Of a stretch of DNA of 47,340 nt, positions 4,001 to 47,302 are shown piece by piece. This DNA is from Patescibacteria group bacterium (GTDB lineage Bacteria > Patescibacteriota > Microgenomatia > UBA1406 > GWC2-37-13): NCBI GenBank assembly GCA_023381015.1, contig JAMCTE010000009.1, positions 1 through 47,340 of the forward strand, read 5' to 3'. The translations under genes were made by a program, and so were the position numbers. The notes under the pieces are model-generated. The model worked only from the letters and a program-made list of their open reading frames with translations, searched no databases and was not told the DNA's origin. Within the stretch, counting starts at the first letter, position 1; each line of letters starts with the position of its first letter.

Positions 4001-7000
4001 CGTACCGTCACCTCCAGAATACCACATCTTGTACGTTGATCCATCTTTGATTACTGACGAGTAAAGTATGTTGTTAACATCTCCTCTTCCAGCAGTTGCT
4101 CCCAATGGTATTTTTCCATTAGTTCCGGTCGTGTCAGAGTTGGCAGGAATCGTATTGTCGTATTTAGTCCATGTTAATCCGTCTGGTGATGTGGCATAAT
4201 AAACTCGCCAAACACTAGAAGCGTCCATTCCAGAATACCACATCTTGTACGTTGATCCGTCTTTGATGACTGCGGGAGAATGAACGCCGTTAACATCTCC
4301 ACGTCCCGCAGTCGCCCCAAGCGGGATTCGACCGTTGGTTCCGGTCGTGTCGGAATTAGCAGGCTTAGTATTGTCATACTTTGTCCATGTTACACCATCA
4401 GTTGATGTAGCATAGTAGATCCTCCAATTCGAGCCGTCTGGTCCGGAATACCACATTTTGTACGTTGATCCGTCTTTGATTACGCTCGGTTTTTCAATAT
4501 TAACCGTGTCTCCACGTCCTGCAGTCGCTCCAAGCGGGATCTGCCCGTTGACTCCGGTTGTATCAGAGTTAGCACCGGCAACATTATTATATTTATTCCA
4601 AACTCCGTTTGGCGTCGATAGGGAAGTGCTGCCGGAATAGACCGCGGCATTGGTCGGCGTCCAGTTGGACGGCGTGTTGGCGTTATCCAAGGTCACCAGG
4701 CTGGCGCTACTGGTTGCCGGCAACCATTGTTCCCAGCTGCCATCGGTAGAGTTGTTGGAAGGACCCGATCTGGTCTGCAGTTCAACCAATCCATAAGGAG
4801 TTTGGTTAGCCAACCAAGAAATATCATGGTATTCGGCGGCATTTGGAGTGGCAATTTCGTCGGAAACAAACACAGAGTAATTATTACTGGAAGGAGTGAT
4901 CGTACCGACGTTATAAGTCGGGGATGTGTTGCCGGAAATGGTCGATCCGTAGTTGACGGCGATTATGCCGGTTCCGCCGTTTCCTCCCCAGGCGTATCCG
5001 CCTAAATCGGACCAACCTCCTGCATATGTAGATTGAGCTCCATTCGTACCTCCGCTTCCGCCATTGGCATGGACGTTGCTGTTTGTGCCGAGATTGACAG
5101 TATTTCCTTGTAATAAGATAGATCCGCCAGCGCCTCCTCCTCCTCCTCCCGAAGGAATTGCCGTACTGCTTCCACCGCTTCCGGCGCCTCCTCCTCCTCC
5201 ATCTGAGCCGATGTATCCTGAAACCGTGATTATGTTCGCTGAAATATAGACAATACCTCCGCCTGTTCCGCCATTGCCACCTGTTTGATTCCATCCGCCG
5301 TTATAACCATAAGAACCGCCTCCTCCTCCTGAACCGAAATACAACTTATTCAAAGTGCTATTTCCACCGGTCGGATAATATGTACCAGCGTAACCTGGAG
5401 TACCGCAGTTTGACCCGGACCTGGTGCCTGCTGCTCCATTTGTACCATAGGCTCCACCTCCACCGCCCGAGCATCCTTGAGGAGCGCCATTTGGTTGTCC
5501 GCCTCCGCCTCCGCCTTCAGGATTGACAGTATAAGTATTCGTCGTTCCCTCTAGGGTGGTTGAAGCTCCCTGATAGCCGCCGTAATATCCTTGGACTCCT
5601 CCTGGATATCCGCTTGCACCTTGGCCGATGCTGCCATCTATATTGACCGCACCAGAAGCCCTGAAGAACATTACGCCGCCCTTGGCACCATTATATGCCG
5701 AAGCATAAAAAGACACGCCGGAGTCGAGAGTCAGATTATGATAATTAGGTACTCTTTGGAGCATGACTCTTTGGGTGCCGTCGGTCGTTCCAAGATTCGT
5801 GTCGTCTGTCGGATTATTTCCGTAATATTTCGTTTTTGCAGTCGTGAAAGTAATGACATTTTGGTTGATGTTTTGGATTCTCAAAGTTTCCCAATTTCCT
5901 ACATTTGAATGTGCGGTTGCCGTTCCCTGCAGATTGATAATCAAAACTTCGTCGCCGATTGCCAAACAGCTTGAAGAGGGGGTGACACTTAGGGTCGCCG
6001 TCTGCGAAGTCATGGCGACAATGTTGTAGTTGACGGCGTCACCGCCATCGGCACAATAACGCCCGGCAATCCTATTGGTGGTGTCAACGACCGTACTCAC
6101 GCTGATTTCGACGTCGCCGTCGGCTCCATTGCCGGTATTGATGGCGCTGCTTAAACTAACGCCTGTTTCTAATTTGTTGACGTTGACGCTTTTATAGTTG
6201 TCGAGATTTATTGAATTGATAATCAATCTGGCGCTTGGATCATAGACGTCAAAACCGTTTTGATTGGACAGTTTATCCGTGACCGTCTGCGTCCCCGAAG
6301 CCGTAGTGTAGGTGATGGTGACGTTGGAAAAGGTGGGTGTCACCGACGGACTGGTGGTTGTCAAAATCGCCCGATACATAATATAGTTATTGGCAGTTGA
6401 AGTGATAGTCGCGCCAGCATTATTCGACAGGTCGTTTTCGGCGACGATGCTATCGATATAGAAGCTGTTGCCGGCAACGCTTGAGGTAAAACGTATTTTA
6501 GTGACGGAGCTTCTTGATCCGGCGGCAATATCGGATATATCCCAGTATATTTTCTGCCAGGTATTGGCATTGTTGATGGTGAAAGATTGCTGTTGTTCGT
6601 TACCAGTAGTTTGGCCAAAACTTAGAGTGATGACGTTTCCAGCAACTGCCGAGCTCACCCAAGCGCTAATATATTGGTAAGAAGAGATATTTGTTGCGGC
6701 AATCGTCCTTTCTGCGTATCCGTTGGCAGCGGTCGTCGTAATTTTAGTATTGACATTTGGGGCTCCAGTGACGTCTTCATCCTCATAATAATTGACATTA
6801 CGGGTTAGCTGCCCATCAGTTACGGTAGCATTTGTTCCTACCCAGTTGGTATAGGTGTTGGCATCGTCAAGAACTAGTTGGGAAGTAGTCGGTTTCCATG
6901 CCTCCCATGTGCCGTCGGTAGAGTTGGTCGTGTTACCGGATCTGGTTTGCAGTTGGACCATGGTTCCTGTCGGTAGGTTTTGCGCCCAAGCAATGGTGCT

Positions 7001-41607: not shown

Positions 41608-42522
41608 CTAAGGGAAGATCTCCGCCATCATGCAGCGGGCGCTGCCGCCGCCGACTTTTTCGATCGTCGGGATCTCGACGGCGATTATTTCTCCTGATTT
41701 TTCCAGAAGACGTTTTTGTTCGGACGTGAATGATGTAAAGGCGGTTTGAGACATGACAATTTTCTTATTGGTTTCAGATACCTTTAATTGAAGGATGTTG
41801 GCGCAGAATGAGTAAATTTGCTTTTGGGAAAGGGGGATGAGTTTTCTGCCGTTTTCGGTCAGTTTATCGGCAAGATTTTTTTGTTCTTGTCTGTTTTTGA
41901 CGGCGTCCAGGCCGATAACGGCGAAATCATCACCGATGCTCATGACAACGTTGGTATGGTAAATCGGCAGGCTGTTTTCGTCATAGGCGTGGAAGAATAT
42001 TCCTTGGTAGTCCATGATTTGGCACCATTTGTCGAATTCGGATTTTGTGGTTCTTGGCGATTCCATTGCATAGGCGATTCGGTTGACTCTGTCGAGCACC
42101 AAGCTACCTGTTCCTTCCAGGATTGATCCATGATTTTCATCCTTGGTTAAATCTATGGTTTTCAAAGCGCCGATTCCTTTTTCAGAAAGAAGTTTTGTCA
42201 AAACTTTGACTTGCCGTTCCGCCCTTCTGTTTTTGGCAAGCATCGGATAGAAAACGAGTTTGCCCGGATGGGAGGAAAACCAATTATTCGGAAAAACGGC
42301 GTCTGGAGTAATGGCGTCCTTGCGGCTGGGCATAACCAAGACCTTGATCTTTTTCGATTTTAGAAGATGAATCATTTGTTCAAATTCCGCCAAAGCTTTT
42401 TTTTGCAATTCTTTCTGTCCGATGTCGACTCGGTTTTGAAAGGCATTGCTGGCGGCGGTTTCTTGGTTAAAGCCAAACTGGTCGGGAGAAATCATTAAAA
42501 CCGTGTCGGTCAATTGATCCAT
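41608..42522 (-). CDS. CtlX-type amidinohydrolase (arginine deiminase/amidinotransferase superfamily)
   Basis: 304 residues from the ATG at 42522. It begins VLMISPDQFGFNQETAASNAFQ after a short lead, has DAVFPNNWFSSHPG (substrate-binding region), ILEGTGSLVLDR (Glu), YHTNVVMSIG (catalytic His), and ends GGGSARCMMAEIFP with the nucleophile Cys. These match CtlX/citrulline-utilisation type hydrolases of the guanidino-group modifying family. A longer frame from 42639 exists, but a consensus promoter lies between, so I reject that start. Possible role in arginine or citrulline turnover (inference). Confidence 0.88.
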   Translation of the reverse strand: MDQLTDTVLMISPDQFGFNQETAASNAFQNRVDIGQKELQKKALAEFEQMIHLLKSKKIKVLVMPSRKDAITPDAVFPNNWFSSHPGKLVFYPMLAKNRRAERQVKVLTKLLSEKGIGALKTIDLTKDENHGSILEGTGSLVLDRVNRIAYAMESPRTTKSEFDKWCQIMDYQGIFFHAYDENSLPIYHTNVVMSIGDDFAVIGLDAVKNRQEQKNLADKLTENGRKLIPLSQKQIYSFCANILQLKVSETNKKIVMSQTAFTSFTSEQKRLLEKSGEIIAVEIPTIEKVGGGSARCMMAEIFP

Positions 42523-42534
42523 AAAATAGGGGAA

Positions 42535-42563
42535 ATAATACCGGTTTTGTAATTCGGTGTCAA
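42535..42563 (-). promoter_or_regulatory. Promoter of the CtlX-type gene
   Basis: Minus strand: TTGACA (42558-42563), 17-nt spacer, TATTAT (42535-42540), 12 nt to the ATG at 42522. It fixes the start against the longer frame. Confidence 0.8.
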
Positions 42564-42580
42564 ATGACTTTAATTTCCCT

Positions 42581-42608
42581 TTGCATTTTCGTAATTCTCG
42601 TGTAAAAT
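42581..42608 (+). promoter_or_regulatory. Promoter of the aromatic operon leader
   Basis: TTGCAT (42581-42586), 16-nt spacer, TAAAAT (42603-42608), 8 nt to the ATG of the leader peptide at 42617. The -35 is weak; geometry equals that of the other promoters in the window. Confidence 0.55.
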
Positions 42609-42616
42609 AAATAGTT

Positions 42617-42685
42617 ATGAGCAAACAATCAGTCAACAACTTTTATTTTTACTTTGACCCACCGCAAGGCGGATGTAATTGTTAA
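42617..42685 (+). CDS. Phe/Tyr-rich leader peptide of an attenuator (22 aa)
   Basis: A complete 22-codon ORF, ATG to TAA. Codons 9-13 (42641-42655) are TTT TAT TTT TAC TTT, i.e. Phe-Tyr-Phe-Tyr-Phe. After them comes DPPQGGCNC and the stop at 42683-42685. It is followed at once by mutually exclusive antiterminator and terminator hairpins and then by genes for aromatic biosynthesis, the layout of enterobacterial pheL-type leaders. A ribosome waiting at the Phe/Tyr codons would cover 42662-42665 but leave 42668 onward free. The function is inferred; the ORF, codons and hairpins are seen. Confidence 0.78.
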   Translation: MSKQSVNNFYFYFDPPQGGCNC

Positions 42686-42714
42686 AGTAAAGATAAAACA
42701 ATTCGCAACCCGCC
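42668..42714 (+). promoter_or_regulatory. Antiterminator hairpin of the aromatic operon attenuator
   Basis: GGCGG (42668-42672 region) pairs with CCGCC (42710-42714), and AATTGTT (42677-42683) with AACAATT (42697-42703). The last CCGCC is also the 5' arm of the terminator, so the two folds exclude each other. A small competing hairpin, CCGC (42662-42665) with GCGG (42669-42672), would block the antiterminator when no ribosome is present. Confidence 0.7.
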
Positions 42715-42733
42715 GAAAGGCGGGCTTTTTTTT
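42709..42733 (+). terminator. Rho-independent terminator (attenuator)
   Basis: CCCGCC (42709-42714), GAAA tetraloop, GGCGGG (42719-42724), C, then eight T's (42726-42733). It lies 24 nt after the leader-peptide stop and 130 nt before the first enzyme gene. Confidence 0.92.
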
Positions 42734-42839
42734 GGTCTCTGTTAACGAACAAAGTGAGTTTACAGAGATCTACCCTCCAAAATTTGCCCTTCGAGCCGCA
42801 GTAGAAATCTACTAAGGCGAGAAGTAAAAGTTGGAGGGT
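42734..42839 (+). ncRNA. Second structured leader element, unidentified
   Basis: Two hairpins. First: GGTCTCTGT (42734-42742) with ACAGAGATC (42762-42770), extended inward by AAC/GTT. Second: ACCCTCCAA (42772-42780) with TTGGAGGGT (42831-42839), enclosing CTTC/GAAG, a tandem GA/GA mismatch (42793-42794 with 42819-42820), GCC/GGC, an internal loop, and AGTAG-aaat-CTACT (42800-42813). No T-run follows directly. It might regulate the operon further, or be a dispersed repeat; I cannot assign it to a known riboswitch or T-box. Confidence 0.55.
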
Positions 42840-42862
42840 GAGTTACTGATTTTTTCGTACTT

Positions 42863-43510
42863 ATGAAACTTTTTATAGACAGCGCCAATATTGGAGAGAT
42901 AAGGGAAGCGGTTTCCTGGGGGATAATCGACGGTGTTACCACTAATCCGTCTTTGATGGCTAAGGAAAAGGGATTAGCGATGGAAAAAATCGCAAAAGAG
43001 ATTTGTAAAATGGTCAAAGGCCCGGTCAGCCTCGAGGGTGGCGCCATGGAGCACGAGGCGATGTTGAGGGAAGGAAGAGCCTTCTCAAGCCTGGCCAAAA
43101 ACGCCGTTTTCAAGATTCCGATGACTATCGACGGCGTCAGGACGGTCAAGAAACTGTCGGCCGAAGGGATAAAAACTAACGTTACCCTGGTTTTTTCTGC
43201 CAATCAAGCGCTATTAGCCGCCAAGGCCGGAGCGACCTTTGTTTCGCCGTTTATCGGCAGACTTGACGATATCGGACGCTCAGGCATCGATCTTATCCGC
43301 GAAATCGTCTTGATTTTCCGCGCTCACGATCTGAAGACAAAGGTCCTGGCCGCCAGCATAAGGGACACCGATCATGTAAAACAATCAGCCTTGGTCGGTG
43401 CCGACATGGCAACGGTCCCTTTTCAAATATTGAGGAAAATGTTTGACCACGAGTTGACCGACAAAGGAATAGCAATTTTCCAGAAAGCTTGGAAAGAAAA
43501 AAACCAATAA
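42863..43510 (+). CDS. tal: Transaldolase (TalC/MipB type)
   Basis: 215 residues, the short transaldolase type. It opens [17 protein letters not shown], then [12 protein letters not shown]; the Schiff-base Lys lies in [10 protein letters not shown] (about residue 84), followed by [20 protein letters not shown] and [13 protein letters not shown], and TDKGIAIF near the end. It interconverts sugar phosphates and can yield erythrose 4-phosphate. As first gene of the aromatic operon, precursor supply is the likely job. The only GGAGG upstream is 25 nt away inside a hairpin, so no usable Shine-Dalgarno site is seen. Confidence 0.95.
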
Positions 43511-43511
43511 T

Positions 43512-44447
43512 ATGAGTCCGAATATTTTCAACAAACAACTAAAAATCATCGCCGGACCCTGTTCGATTGACGAAAACAACGTCGAGGACGTGATGGAAAT
43601 TGCCGAAATCAAAGTCAAAAACAGTTCCGGCAAAAACCGACCGGCGATTTTCGGTACCCGGGTGGTTGGTTTGAAGTCAAGGACGGCTTTGAGCCGCGAC
43701 GGCAAGAACATGGGGATAGACTTTCAGGTCTACAAAAAAAACATGGAGGCGTTTATGGCCGGTCAACCAGTTGATCGATTCAAGTTATTGCCGAGCGTCA
43801 AGATTGCCAAGCAGATTATCAAGAAAACCAAACTGTTGGTGGCGTCTGAGATCATGGATCCGCTTTTCCAACTGCCGGTTTTCGAAAAGAATTTGCCGAG
43901 AGAAAAAGTGATGGTTTGGAATCCGGCGGTTTCCCAACTGGGTTGGCCGATCATGAATATGGCTCATTTTGCCAGGAAAAACCGCTGGATGGTTGGATTG
44001 AAAAATCCCAAGTGGTATGGCGACGAGCACCTGGGGCAGACAACCATGGAAAAAACCTGGATTGGTTTGGTCCACTACACTGAGATGAATCAGCCAGGAT
44101 TCGAAGACAAGCTGGTTTTGATCCATCGGGGAGTCGACGTGTACAACAAAGGTGATTATAGGAACTTGCCGGTTCATCAGGCAGCCCAAAGGGTCAAGAA
44201 ATCCACCCGTGCCAAACTGTTTTTTGTCCCTTGCAAATTAATGCCTCCAAAATTAAGGGACGCCATCGTGTCCGCCTCAGTCGAAGCAATGAAGATTAAA
44301 ATCGACGAAGAAAATTTTTTGTATGACGGGATTTTGATCGAAGTCGGCCGGTCAAAAACCGATACAGAACAACACGTTACCGTCAAAGAATTAGCCGATC
44401 TTTGTCAGAGGCTGGCTGAGTTTAGAAGTTTGACGCCGCCTAATTAA
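43512..44447 (+). CDS. DAHP synthase-like protein (class I beta-like) with altered active site
   Basis: 311 residues. Family features: LKIIAGPCSID (metal-binding Cys, about residue 17), LKSRTAL (K and R of the KPRTSP-type loop), LVLIHRGVDVY, then GDYRNLPV (HRG...YRN-P), and DGILIEVGRSKTDTEQHVT (Glu and Asp metal ligands). It would join PEP and erythrose 4-phosphate, the first step to chorismate. Odd points: the usual DPSH with a metal-ligand His reads VPCK (FFVPCKLMPP), and the GAR region reads WNPAVSQLGW. So activity may be changed or a separate subfamily is involved. It starts one base after the transaldolase stop. Confidence 0.75.
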   Translation: MSPNIFNKQLKIIAGPCSIDENNVEDVMEIAEIKVKNSSGKNRPAIFGTRVVGLKSRTALSRDGKNMGIDFQVYKKNMEAFMAGQPVDRFKLLPSVKIAKQIIKKTKLLVASEIMDPLFQLPVFEKNLPREKVMVWNPAVSQLGWPIMNMAHFARKNRWMVGLKNPKWYGDEHLGQTTMEKTWIGLVHYTEMNQPGFEDKLVLIHRGVDVYNKGDYRNLPVHQAAQRVKKSTRAKLFFVPCKLMPPKLRDAIVSASVEAMKIKIDEENFLYDGILIEVGRSKTDTEQHVTVKELADLCQRLAEFRSLTPPN

Positions 44448-44448
44448 T

Positions 44449-45504
44449 ATGGAAAAAGTCATCGTAGGAAACAATTTGTTGGGAAAAATATCCGAGCTTA
44501 TCAACTTGGAAAAATTTTCCAAAGTCGCGGTTCTGACCGATAAAAACGTTGCCGGTCTGTGGTTGGAAAAATTGGAATCAGGTATCAATAAAGACGTTTT
44601 GAAAATAGTTGTCGAACCGGGGGAGGGGTCAAAAAGCTTGAGAAGGAGCGAAATAATTTGGCAAAAAATGCTCAACGGCAAAATGGATAGGCGGTCGCTT
44701 TTGATCAATCTGGGTGGGGGCGTCATCACTGATTTGGGAGGATTTGTCGCCTCGACTTTTATGCGTGGGATTGATTTTATTAACGCACCAACCACTTTAC
44801 TGGCGATGGCTGACGCCTCAATCGGAGGAAAAACAGGCATTAATTTGCAAGGGACAAAAAATATTATCGGCACTTTTTCTGAGCCTGAAAAAATAATAAT
44901 TGACACTAATGTTTTGAAGACTTTGTCTGACCGGGTATTTGTCGAAGGTTTTGCCGAGATAATCAAGCATAGTATTATTGACGGCCGTGATTATTTTGAA
45001 CTAGTGACATCAAAAAAGCCAAGAGAGTTTGACGGCAAAGAATTAGAAAAAATTATTAAGGAGTCGGTAAGAATAAAATCAGCCGTAGTCGATAAGGATA
45101 AAAAAGAAAAAGGTTTACGCAAAGTATTAAATTTCGGTCATACCATTGGTCATGCTATTGAATCAATCAGTCTAAAAACTGATCGGCCATTGCTTCATGG
45201 TGAAGCGATAGCGATCGGAATGGTCGCCGAAAGCAAATTAGCGCAGTTGATGGGTCTTTTGTCCGAAAAGGATTTCTTATTAATAAAGAACGCAGTTGAT
45301 CGCGTTGGCCTTCCATGTTGTCATCCCGACGAAGGTCGGGATCCAGACTTATTGATCCACAACATTTTACAGATAATGTCTTTCGACAAAAAAAATATCG
45401 AGAAAAGGATTCTTTGGAGTTTGCCGAAGAAAATCGGTCAGGTGACCGCCAACGTTCAAGTTCCTGACGCTTTAATAGTTGAGGTCTTACGGACAATCTT
45501 ATGA
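44449..45504 (+). CDS. aroB: 3-dehydroquinate synthase
   Basis: 351 residues. NAD- and substrate-site motifs are intact: GGGVITDLGGFVAST, PTTLLAMADASIGGKTGIN, KNIIGTF, FAEIIKHSIID (Zn-ligand Glu), NFGHTIGHAIE (Zn His) and LLHGEAIAIGM (Zn His), and FDKKN near the end. It converts DAHP to 3-dehydroquinate. A REP-like palindrome (45320-45347) is read in frame as CHPDEGRDPD in a C-terminal loop. It starts one base after the DAHP synthase-like stop and ends with a TGA that overlaps the next ATG. Confidence 0.95.
   Translation: MEKVIVGNNLLGKISELINLEKFSKVAVLTDKNVAGLWLEKLESGINKDVLKIVVEPGEGSKSLRRSEIIWQKMLNGKMDRRSLLINLGGGVITDLGGFVASTFMRGIDFINAPTTLLAMADASIGGKTGINLQGTKNIIGTFSEPEKIIIDTNVLKTLSDRVFVEGFAEIIKHSIIDGRDYFELVTSKKPREFDGKELEKIIKESVRIKSAVVDKDKKEKGLRKVLNFGHTIGHAIESISLKTDRPLLHGEAIAIGMVAESKLAQLMGLLSEKDFLLIKNAVDRVGLPCCHPDEGRDPDLLIHNILQIMSFDKKNIEKRILWSLPKKIGQVTANVQVPDALIVEVLRTIL
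45320..45347. repeat. REP-like palindrome inside aroB
   Basis: atcccgac (45323-45330), gaag loop, gtcgggat (45335-45342), flanked by gtc and ccagac. Reverse-complemented it matches the element at 397-423 except for stem changes that keep base pairing. Confidence 0.8.
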
Positions 45505-46805
45505 TTCTGAAGGTAAAAAAGAGCTCTTCTCTTAGGGGGGAAGTCATTATGCCGGTTTCCAAGACCCATTCGTTTCGGGCTTTAATCCTGGCCAGCATGG
45601 CCAATGGGACAACATTTGTCAGGAATCCCAAATTAAGCAACGATTGGCATGAGGCAGTCAAAGCGATGAGGATGTTCGGAGCCAAGATCGACGAAATCGA
45701 TTCCGGCGTGTTCAGGATAGTGGGGGTCAGTGGCAGATTGAAAACGCCGGCGGACGTGATTGATGTCGGTAATTCAGGGACGATGTTATTTTTTATGATC
45801 GGCATAGCCGCCGCTTGTCCTAGTTGGTCGGTGATTACCGGAGACGAGTCGATCAGGACTTTGCGGAAAATTTCCAGGAATCTTTTTGAGCCGTTTAAAG
45901 AACTTGGCGTACAAATCATTTCGACTAAAAATGACGGCATGGCGCCATTCTTGATCAAAGGAAAAGTTGACGGCGGCACCGCTCATATGGATGGCATCGG
46001 CTGCCAGCCGGTTTTCAGCGTTCTTATAGCATCGGTTTTTTCGAGACGGCCAGTGGAAATTTTTGTCCGCAATCCAGGAGAAAAAGCTTATATTGATTTA
46101 CTTTTATTTTGGTTTAATAAAGTCGGGTTGAAATTTGAGAACGTTGGAAATAAACACGAGCATTATAAATTTCCAGGAAATGAGCCGCCTAAACCTTTTG
46201 ACGCGACGATTCCTTTTGAGTGGTCGGCGCCCGGTTACCCGCTTTTAGCCGCAACTATCAGTCCAAATTCTGAGCTAAAAGTGAGAGGGATGGATCTTGA
46301 TGATCCATACGGCGATAAACAAGTAATCGATGTTTTAAAAAAAATGGGAGCCGATATAAAAGTGGATAAAAACTGTTTGACGGCCCGGACCAGCCAGTTA
46401 CGTGGGGTTGAGGCCGATATGAATGCCATGCCTGATCAAGTGCCGACGATCGCCGTGGCAGCTTGTTTTGCCAAGGGCAAGACAATCATTAAAAACGCGC
46501 TAACGGCCCGTTGGAAAGAATGCGACCGGATCAGTGCCGTTGCCAGCGAACTGAAAAAAATGGGTGCCAAAATCGCCGAAAAGAAAGACGGCCTGATAAT
46601 CAACCAAGACGGAAGCTGGAGGTTGAAGGCGGCCAAAGTCGACGGCCATAAGGATCATCGTATGGTCATGGCGCTGGCTTTGGCCGGTTTAAGGTGCGAG
46701 GGAGAAACGATCGTCACCGATGCCCAATATGTCGAAAAGTCATTCGAAGGTTTCATTCCGGGAATGAAAGAAGCCGGAGCCAATTTTGAATTGGTTAATA
46801 ATTAA
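45501..46805 (+). CDS. aroA: EPSP synthase-family protein (AroA-like) with altered ligand residues
   Basis: 434 residues. Family landmarks: VSKTHSFRALILASMANGTT (K and R near the N-terminus), VIDVGNSGTMLFFM, ITGDESIRTLRK, DMNAMPDQVPTIAVAACF (catalytic Asp), RWKECDRI (K-E-x-D-R), DGHKDHRMVM, and YVEKSFEGF. It would add an enolpyruvyl group to shikimate 3-phosphate. Departures: the Arg after NSGT is Phe, the SSQ triad reads GCQ, and the R-x-x-R-P loop is different. The start overlaps the aroB stop by 4 bases (ATGA), which implies translational coupling. Confidence 0.85.
   Translation: MILKVKKSSSLRGEVIMPVSKTHSFRALILASMANGTTFVRNPKLSNDWHEAVKAMRMFGAKIDEIDSGVFRIVGVSGRLKTPADVIDVGNSGTMLFFMIGIAAACPSWSVITGDESIRTLRKISRNLFEPFKELGVQIISTKNDGMAPFLIKGKVDGGTAHMDGIGCQPVFSVLIASVFSRRPVEIFVRNPGEKAYIDLLLFWFNKVGLKFENVGNKHEHYKFPGNEPPKPFDATIPFEWSAPGYPLLAATISPNSELKVRGMDLDDPYGDKQVIDVLKKMGADIKVDKNCLTARTSQLRGVEADMNAMPDQVPTIAVAACFAKGKTIIKNALTARWKECDRISAVASELKKMGAKIAEKKDGLIINQDGSWRLKAAKVDGHKDHRMVMALALAGLRCEGETIVTDAQYVEKSFEGFIPGMKEAGANFELVNN
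46493..46577. repeat. 85-bp inverted repeat, copy in aroA
   Basis: Exact reverse complement of 47256-47340. It is genuine aroA coding sequence. Confidence 0.95.
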
Positions 46806-46819
46806 ATCAACAATTAAAT

Positions 46820-47302
46820 ATGAAAATACTGGTTATTCACGGCCCGAATTTAAACATGTTGGGCAAGAGGGATCCGAAGAAATACGGATCGATTAAGCTC
46901 GCTATAATTAATGATTTACTTGAAAAAAAAGCTAAGGATCTGGATTGCCATCTGGAAATAATTCAGTCCAATCATACTGGTGATCTGATTGATTTTTTGC
47001 AAAAAGACTCGTCAAGAGAATCGGCTGGTTTATTGATCAATCCGGGCGCGCTGATTAGATTTGACTTTTGTTTCCGCCAGGCATTGGTCGATTTCGGCAA
47101 GCCTTTTGTCGAAGTCCACATGTCAAATATTGACAAGACCGGCATCAATAAAAAAGTGAACGTTTTTGATGATCTGCCAACAAGAGTCACCCAAGTAATC
47201 GGACTAAAAGAAAATAGCTATTTGGTTGGTTTGGAAGAGTTGGTTGGTCATTTGAGGCGATTTTGGCACCCATTTTTTTCAGTTCGCTGGCAACGGCACT
47301 GA
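46820..47302 (+). CDS. aroQ: Type II 3-dehydroquinase-like protein (AroQ-like), 3' end doubtful
   Basis: 160 residues as read. It has IHGPNLNMLGKRDPKKYGS (Arg and catalytic Tyr), IIQSNHTGDLIDF, LLINPGALIRFDF and FVEVHMSNID. Departures from the family: in the usual N-A-x-x-x-T-H-T-S loop the catalytic His is Arg (ALIRFD), and the two Arg of the R-E-x-x-R segment are missing (DKTGINKK). It would dehydrate 3-dehydroquinate. From codon 146 (47256) the sequence is antisense to aroA, so the final 15 residues are probably artificial; the true end may lie just beyond GLEELVGHLR. Confidence 0.75.
   Translation: MKILVIHGPNLNMLGKRDPKKYGSIKLAIINDLLEKKAKDLDCHLEIIQSNHTGDLIDFLQKDSSRESAGLLINPGALIRFDFCFRQALVDFGKPFVEVHMSNIDKTGINKKVNVFDDLPTRVTQVIGLKENSYLVGLEELVGHLRRFWHPFFSVRWQRH

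Follow-up and report, generated by a model that had tools for sequence, protein, structure and literature searches.

The aromatic operon at the end of the 47,340-nucleotide stretch of DNA analyzed here (the window) raises the question of whether its leader RNA is a switch that responds to phenylalanine and tyrosine, and whether such a switch is found in relatives. A sequence-only reading had proposed a Phe/Tyr transcription attenuator of the pheL/trpL type at this locus, in a probable bacterium of the Candidate Phyla Radiation (CPR). Based on the sequence and on modeled folding, we consider it highly probable that the leader is a ribosome-mediated attenuator through which the levels of charged tRNA-Phe and tRNA-Tyr govern tal-DAHPS-aroB-aroA-aroQ (DAHPS, DAHP synthase).

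Leader, promoter, and operon of the window

The elements named in the sequence-only reading are all present where it had placed them. A 22-codon ORF, MSKQSVNNFYFYFDPPQGGCNC, extends over positions 42617 to 42685 of the forward strand (stop codon TAA, 42683-42685), and its codons 9 to 13, TTT TAT TTT TAC TTT (42641-42655), specify Phe-Tyr-Phe-Tyr-Phe. A protector hairpin, CCGC-AAG-GCGG (42662-42672), pairs CCGC at 42662-42665 with GCGG at 42669-42672. Between the leader ORF and the first operon gene, an intrinsic terminator at 42709-42733 consists of the GAAA-capped hairpin CCCGCC-GAAA-GGCGGG (42709-42724), a single C, and a run of eight T's (42726-42733). Antiterminator strand 2 (42668-42683) comprises GGCGG (42668-42672) and TGTAATTGTT (42674-42683), and strand 3 (42697-42714) comprises AACAATT (42697-42703), GCA (42705-42707), and CCGCC (42710-42714); these elements all lie on the forward strand. 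GGCGG at 42668-42672 can pair with CCGCC at 42710-42714, which is common to the antiterminator and the terminator, as had been claimed. The alternative hairpins are more extensive than that reading had recognized, as it missed both the full length of the antiterminator, about 15 bp (GGCGG/CCGCC plus 42674-42683 with 42697-42707), and an 18-bp helix of the untranslated leader RNA (42641-42658 with 42681-42698), the 5' arm of which includes the Phe/Tyr codons. The ORF, its codons, and the alternative helices can be read directly from the DNA. The predicted fold of the leader RNA has an energy of -36.7 kcal/mol compared to -22.9 kcal/mol for shuffled sequences (z -4.2), and none of 200 shuffles was equally stable.

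Intrinsic terminators and short ORFs are common, and the window has other matches to our scan; the locus could therefore combine an ordinary terminator of upstream transcription with a Phe/Tyr ORF that arose by chance. However, the upstream gene, ctlX (41608-42522), is on the opposite strand, so the terminator serves no adjoining upstream gene, and no forward-strand gene lies just upstream.

A promoter is predicted on the forward strand at 42580-42608 (-35 TTTGCA, 17-nt spacer, -10 TAAAAT). Its -10 box ends 8 nt before the leader ATG, and the predicted transcription start is at about 42615-42617. In most of the leaders compared, TTGACA-like and TATAAT-like boxes are 16 to 18 nt apart, with the -10 box ending 6 to 12 nt before the ATG (26 of 33 leaders by computation; median shuffle p 0.005). 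The match in the window is weaker (TTTGCA/TAAAAT, p 0.075), and most homologous leaders are closer to TTGACA/TATAAT. The spacing predicts a 5' untranslated region of a few nucleotides at most and suggests that the leader mRNAs are leaderless, in agreement with the prediction made earlier for the leader ORF of the window. The same -10-to-start spacing precedes many first genes of the window, and a Shine-Dalgarno-like motif was detected for only 1 of 32 window genes. The 16S rRNA (G000:C18:45369-46884) ends in GGATCACCTCC, and its 3' end keeps CCTCC. Leaderless or Shine-Dalgarno-independent initiation looks general in this genome and not special to the leader.

The aromatic genes that had been noted downstream are present on the forward strand. 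The tal gene (42863-43510) encodes a transaldolase / fructose-6-phosphate aldolase (TalC; TIGR00875, above the NCBIfam cut-off), which is the likely supplier of erythrose-4-phosphate. It is followed by the gene for a divergent DAHP synthase (43512-44447), aroB for 3-dehydroquinate synthase (44449-45504; TIGR01357, above cut-off), aroA for EPSP synthase (45501-46805; TIGR01356, above cut-off), and aroQ for a type II 3-dehydroquinate dehydratase (46820-47302), which scored below the curated cut-offs (E 4e-35). The DAHP synthase has only a weak match to an NCBIfam DAHPS model (20.7 bits) and no Pfam match at E 0.001, and its family profile matched DAHP synthases in the PDB weakly (best E 4e-4). 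DAHPS, aroB, aroA, and aroQ fit the synthesis of the amino acids that would be sensed.

The contig also shows several irregularities. Within the DAHP synthase gene, positions 44220-44246 repeat 27 nt of aroB (44835-44861) in inverted orientation without a mismatch. This copy sits in place of the DPSH motif (FVPCKLMPP versus FDPSH in nearly all relatives) and is either a templated mutation or an assembly artifact. Because the DAHP synthase of this contig is without the DPSH motif, the operon may be damaged or misassembled. A 90-nt inverted repeat (98%) is present at the contig end (46493-46582 and 47251-47340), and the last 90 bases, from 47251, look like a chimera. Between the terminator and tal is a palindromic element (42772-42839), and the stretch from 42733 to 42865 has a fold z of -6.3. 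This element recurs in two genomes of the same genus with 76 to 90% identity and appears to be a small repeat, mobile or REP-like, that has inserted into the leader of the operon.

Ribosome position and competing helices

In the mechanism that we propose, transcription would start at the leader ATG or a few nucleotides away, and the leaderless end would be where ribosomes load. In a shortage of Phe or Tyr, the ribosome would stall with its A site on codons 9 to 13, opening the helix between strands 1 and 2 and covering the 5' arm of the protector. The freed GGCGG and TGTAATTGTT (42668-42683) could then pair with 42697-42714, and this pairing of strands 2 and 3 would sequester CCGCC and block the terminator, allowing RNA polymerase to enter the operon. 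When both Phe and Tyr are plentiful, the ribosome would reach the stop codon and cover strand 2, and the terminator would form, giving a transcript of about 117 nt that ends near 42733. If translation were absent, the protector would hide antiterminator strand 2, and the terminator would also form. We infer promoter use, ribosome loading, stalling, and read-through from the arrangement of these elements and from folding.

The sequence-only reading had held that stalling at Phe or Tyr codons allows read-through and had proposed folding the leader with and without a ribosome mask. We used a mask that covered the A-site codon, the 15 nt preceding it, and the 11 nt following it, and moved this mask along the ORF. 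With strand 4 not yet made, the antiterminator probability in the window was 0.96 to 0.98 with the A site at codons 8 to 13, 0.38 at codon 7, 0.43 at codon 14, and 0 from codon 15; without a ribosome or before codon 7, it was at most 0.01. The predicted switch lies over the Phe/Tyr codons (about 0.97 versus about 0), and the antiterminator obtained at codons 9 to 13 is consistent with the read-through that had been predicted. The protector hairpin had a probability of 0.81 in the free RNA and of 0 with a Phe/Tyr stall before strand 4 was made. For the full-length RNA, the terminator probability was 1.0 both for the free RNA and with the ribosome at the stop codon. Under stalls, it was 0.15 to 0.16 at F9 and Y10, 0.62 at F11, and 1.0 at Y12 and F13. 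Since the full-length equilibrium favors the terminator at Y12 and F13, read-through at these two codons must rely on the antiterminator forming first.

The same dependence on position was obtained for the 33 leaders. The mean antiterminator probability was 0.89 at aromatic codons compared to 0.08 downstream (Wilcoxon p 1e-10). At the last aromatic codon it was still 0.77, and two codons further on it had dropped to 0.19. The search for strand 2 was confined to the region past the aromatic codons, which biases this positional result slightly in its favor. About half of the leaders form the antiterminator with no ribosome present, and basal behavior therefore varies.

Short helices were out of register in the MAFFT alignment of the leaders, and column-wise pair counting was therefore replaced by duplex energies with shuffle and swap controls. 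Strand 2, which begins 4 to 14 nt past the last aromatic codon, paired with the 5' arm of the terminator better than the dinucleotide-shuffle mean in all 33 leaders (mean z -3.1, combined Z 18.1); the test for the window alone was weak (p 0.10 with the short arm). Pairing became weaker when strand 2 was exchanged among the leaders, and the sum for the true combinations was not attained in any of 20,000 permutations (Z -7.1 with the arm only and -9.8 with 10 nt upstream). This result, together with the presence of 23 distinct terminator arms among the 33 leaders, indicates that strands 2, 3, and 4 change together. Examples of such sets are GGGAGG/CCTCCC/GGGAGG (locus L057), GGGGC/GCCCC/GGGGC (L085), and GGGCGGT/ACCGCCC/GGGCGGT (L061). 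The stems are kept while their sequences change, which is the covariation that the earlier reading had named as support to be sought in homologous leaders.

Control of the terminator by a trans-acting factor or ligand (a T-box, a TRAP-like protein, or a small-molecule riboswitch), with the ORF being incidental, would have a parallel in the T-boxes that control aromatic genes in other phyla. However, the T-box covariance model gave no match to E 10 in positions 42400-42900 of the window, no T-box or riboswitch model reached its gathering score in the window leader or in 16 homologous loci, and the switch point tracks the position of the aromatic codons. We rejected the T-box and riboswitch readings on these grounds and regard control by a factor or ligand as extremely improbable. 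Alternatively, the leader peptide might be the sensor of a switch that works chiefly through Rho-dependent termination, translational coupling, or some other route, and some leader peptides of Actinobacteria are indeed without attenuator parts (PMC1262725). Here, however, in every leader examined, an antiterminator competes with an intrinsic terminator that carries a T run, and the first gene begins only past the terminator, about 7 to 200 nt beyond it in most loci, which makes such a route very unlikely.

Distribution of the element in relatives

The same-family genomes identified with the DAHP synthase are named Ca. Roizmanbacteria, Microgenomates group, and Patescibacteria, which supports the CPR placement that had been proposed and puts the genome of the window in the Roizmanbacteria/Microgenomates part of the CPR. 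We counted the element as present where DAHPS or its operon was preceded by a short ORF that had at least four F/Y/W within six codons and was followed by a terminator. The Phe/Tyr-rich leader ORFs expected ahead of DAHPS and aro operons in related genomes were found: of 20 same-family loci, 19 have the element upstream of DAHPS, and so do 3 of 4 further same-class loci. A scan of the DAHPS family with one genome per species yielded 62 named loci, 31 of which have the element: 29 CPR or same-family loci (including the unassigned Bacterium HR35), one Elusimicrobium, and one delta-proteobacterium. The element was not found in 14 Bacteroidetes-group and 6 Rickettsiales DAHPS loci, also with relaxed settings (upstream DNA was under 200 nt for two of these 20 loci). 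In ten CPR loci, it was missing or the locus was not judgeable. The leader peptides differ (FYFYFDPP, YYFFFYPT, FYFYFYF, WFYFYFIF, and FFFFYPPF), while the aromatic run is constant. In 482 kb of control strand, the background was 4 strict matches of a short F/Y/W ORF with a terminator. Looser patterns, applied to the window's own genome to find other F/Y leaders, were uninformative (149 matches versus 175 in the control).

The Phe/Tyr ORF, strand 2, and the terminator thus recur and covary ahead of DAHPS against a low background. We therefore rejected the combination of a plain chance ORF with an ordinary terminator, which we consider exceedingly unlikely, and retain ribosome-mediated attenuation as the explanation of the locus.

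This DAHP synthase is rare within the class (19 of 374 genomes). On a quick tree of the DAHP synthases, the element is scattered across the CPR parts but does not occur on the branches of Bacteroidetes and Rickettsiales, and 8 changes of element presence are needed. Deep support in this tree is weak, so an ancestral origin of the element is plausible but not shown. We lean neither for nor against the view that Phe/Tyr(/Trp) attenuation is an old device of a CPR-centered DAHP synthase family, one that several CPR phyla have retained, that does not accompany the enzyme in Bacteroidetes and Rickettsiales, and that operates on leaderless leader ORFs. If true, the reduced ribosomes of CPR bacteria would perform classical transcription-translation-coupled sensing without Shine-Dalgarno initiation.

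The attenuated operons of relatives add genes for prephenate dehydratase, prephenate dehydrogenase with chorismate mutase, shikimate kinase, and shikimate dehydrogenase (aroE). A PfkB-family kinase is the first attenuated gene in loci L047, L051, L057, L060, L065, L067, L074, L075, L082, and L106, and a fructose-bisphosphate aldolase adjoins this kinase or DAHPS in L067, L075, and L106. The kinase and aldolase possibly provide an erythrose-4-phosphate route via sedoheptulose bisphosphate, replacing the tal of the window.

Additional leaders were observed in some loci. Two F/Y(W) attenuators are in tandem in L094 (3619-3960), and two are about 2.7 kb apart in L153 (1021-1135 and 3777-3890, reverse-complement coordinates). 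In the Dojkabacterium locus L105, an F/Y leader with a terminator, MNNKTKTNQNYFFFYFFGNPN, is located near 5056, downstream of DAHPS, and may control other genes. The trpD neighborhoods in CPR contained two Trp-type leader candidates. These are Trp-containing short ORFs (IWQSWxTLKxEDLL) with terminators, located about 2 kb upstream of trpD and conserved between two related genomes (L221, 4955-5074; L224, 453-557, reverse-complement coordinates), and they are candidate trp attenuators. No His leaders were found near hisG in the 11 CPR loci searched.

Relation to described attenuators and significance for CPR bacteria

The mechanism is that of the classical attenuator, as the comparison with pheL/trpL had implied. 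The closest described system, however, is not E. coli pheL/trpL but aroR of Corynebacterium glutamicum, a leader with Phe-Tyr-Phe that precedes aroF, the gene for a DAHP synthase (Neshat et al. 2014, as described in PMC11802643; PMC4046766). As described there, aroR shares with the window a leader peptide with Phe-Tyr-Phe, ribosome-mediated attenuation, and a DAHP synthase operon. This likeness is one of features; the window belongs to another phylum, its aromatic run (FYFYF) is longer, and its operon is tal-DAHPS-aroB-aroA-aroQ. The pheL/pheST leaders of Proteobacteria likewise combine a Phe-rich leader with an antiterminator and a terminator, and the Rfam model Phe_leader (RF01859) covers the whole element. 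This model scored 38.3 bits on the window (E 6.7e-5), below its gathering score of 55, which was reached by none of 16 homologous loci. In contrast to pheL/pheST, the leader of the window has mixed Phe and Tyr codons and a probable leaderless start, and its target is the start of the pathway rather than pheA or pheST. Leaderless leader ORFs have precedents in trpL of S. meliloti, where the transcript begins with the leader ORF (PMC7298713), and in ilvBNC of C. glutamicum, the leader of which needs no ribosome binding site for its translation (Morbach 2000, cited in PMC4046766). The two systems concern other amino acids and other phyla, and their start sites were measured, whereas that of the window is predicted.

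The sequence-only reading knew of no attenuator described in CPR, and our search, which was thin on subscription journals, found no paper on attenuators in Patescibacteria/Candidate Phyla Radiation. The taxon is new for this mechanism as far as could be checked.

Most of what is known about CPR bacteria comes from their genomes, and the usual picture is one of host-dependent cells with little regulation. The CPR bacteria with the element very probably use a classical translation-coupled switch to sense amino acid shortage. The attenuator supports a DAHP synthase function for a family that is barely recognized by standard models, and the RNA of about 117 nt with a predicted end is a concrete target in metatranscriptomes. 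The conservation of the attenuator suggests that some CPR bacteria still make aromatic amino acids and sense Phe/Tyr shortage and that transcription and translation in CPR are coupled closely enough for RNA switching.
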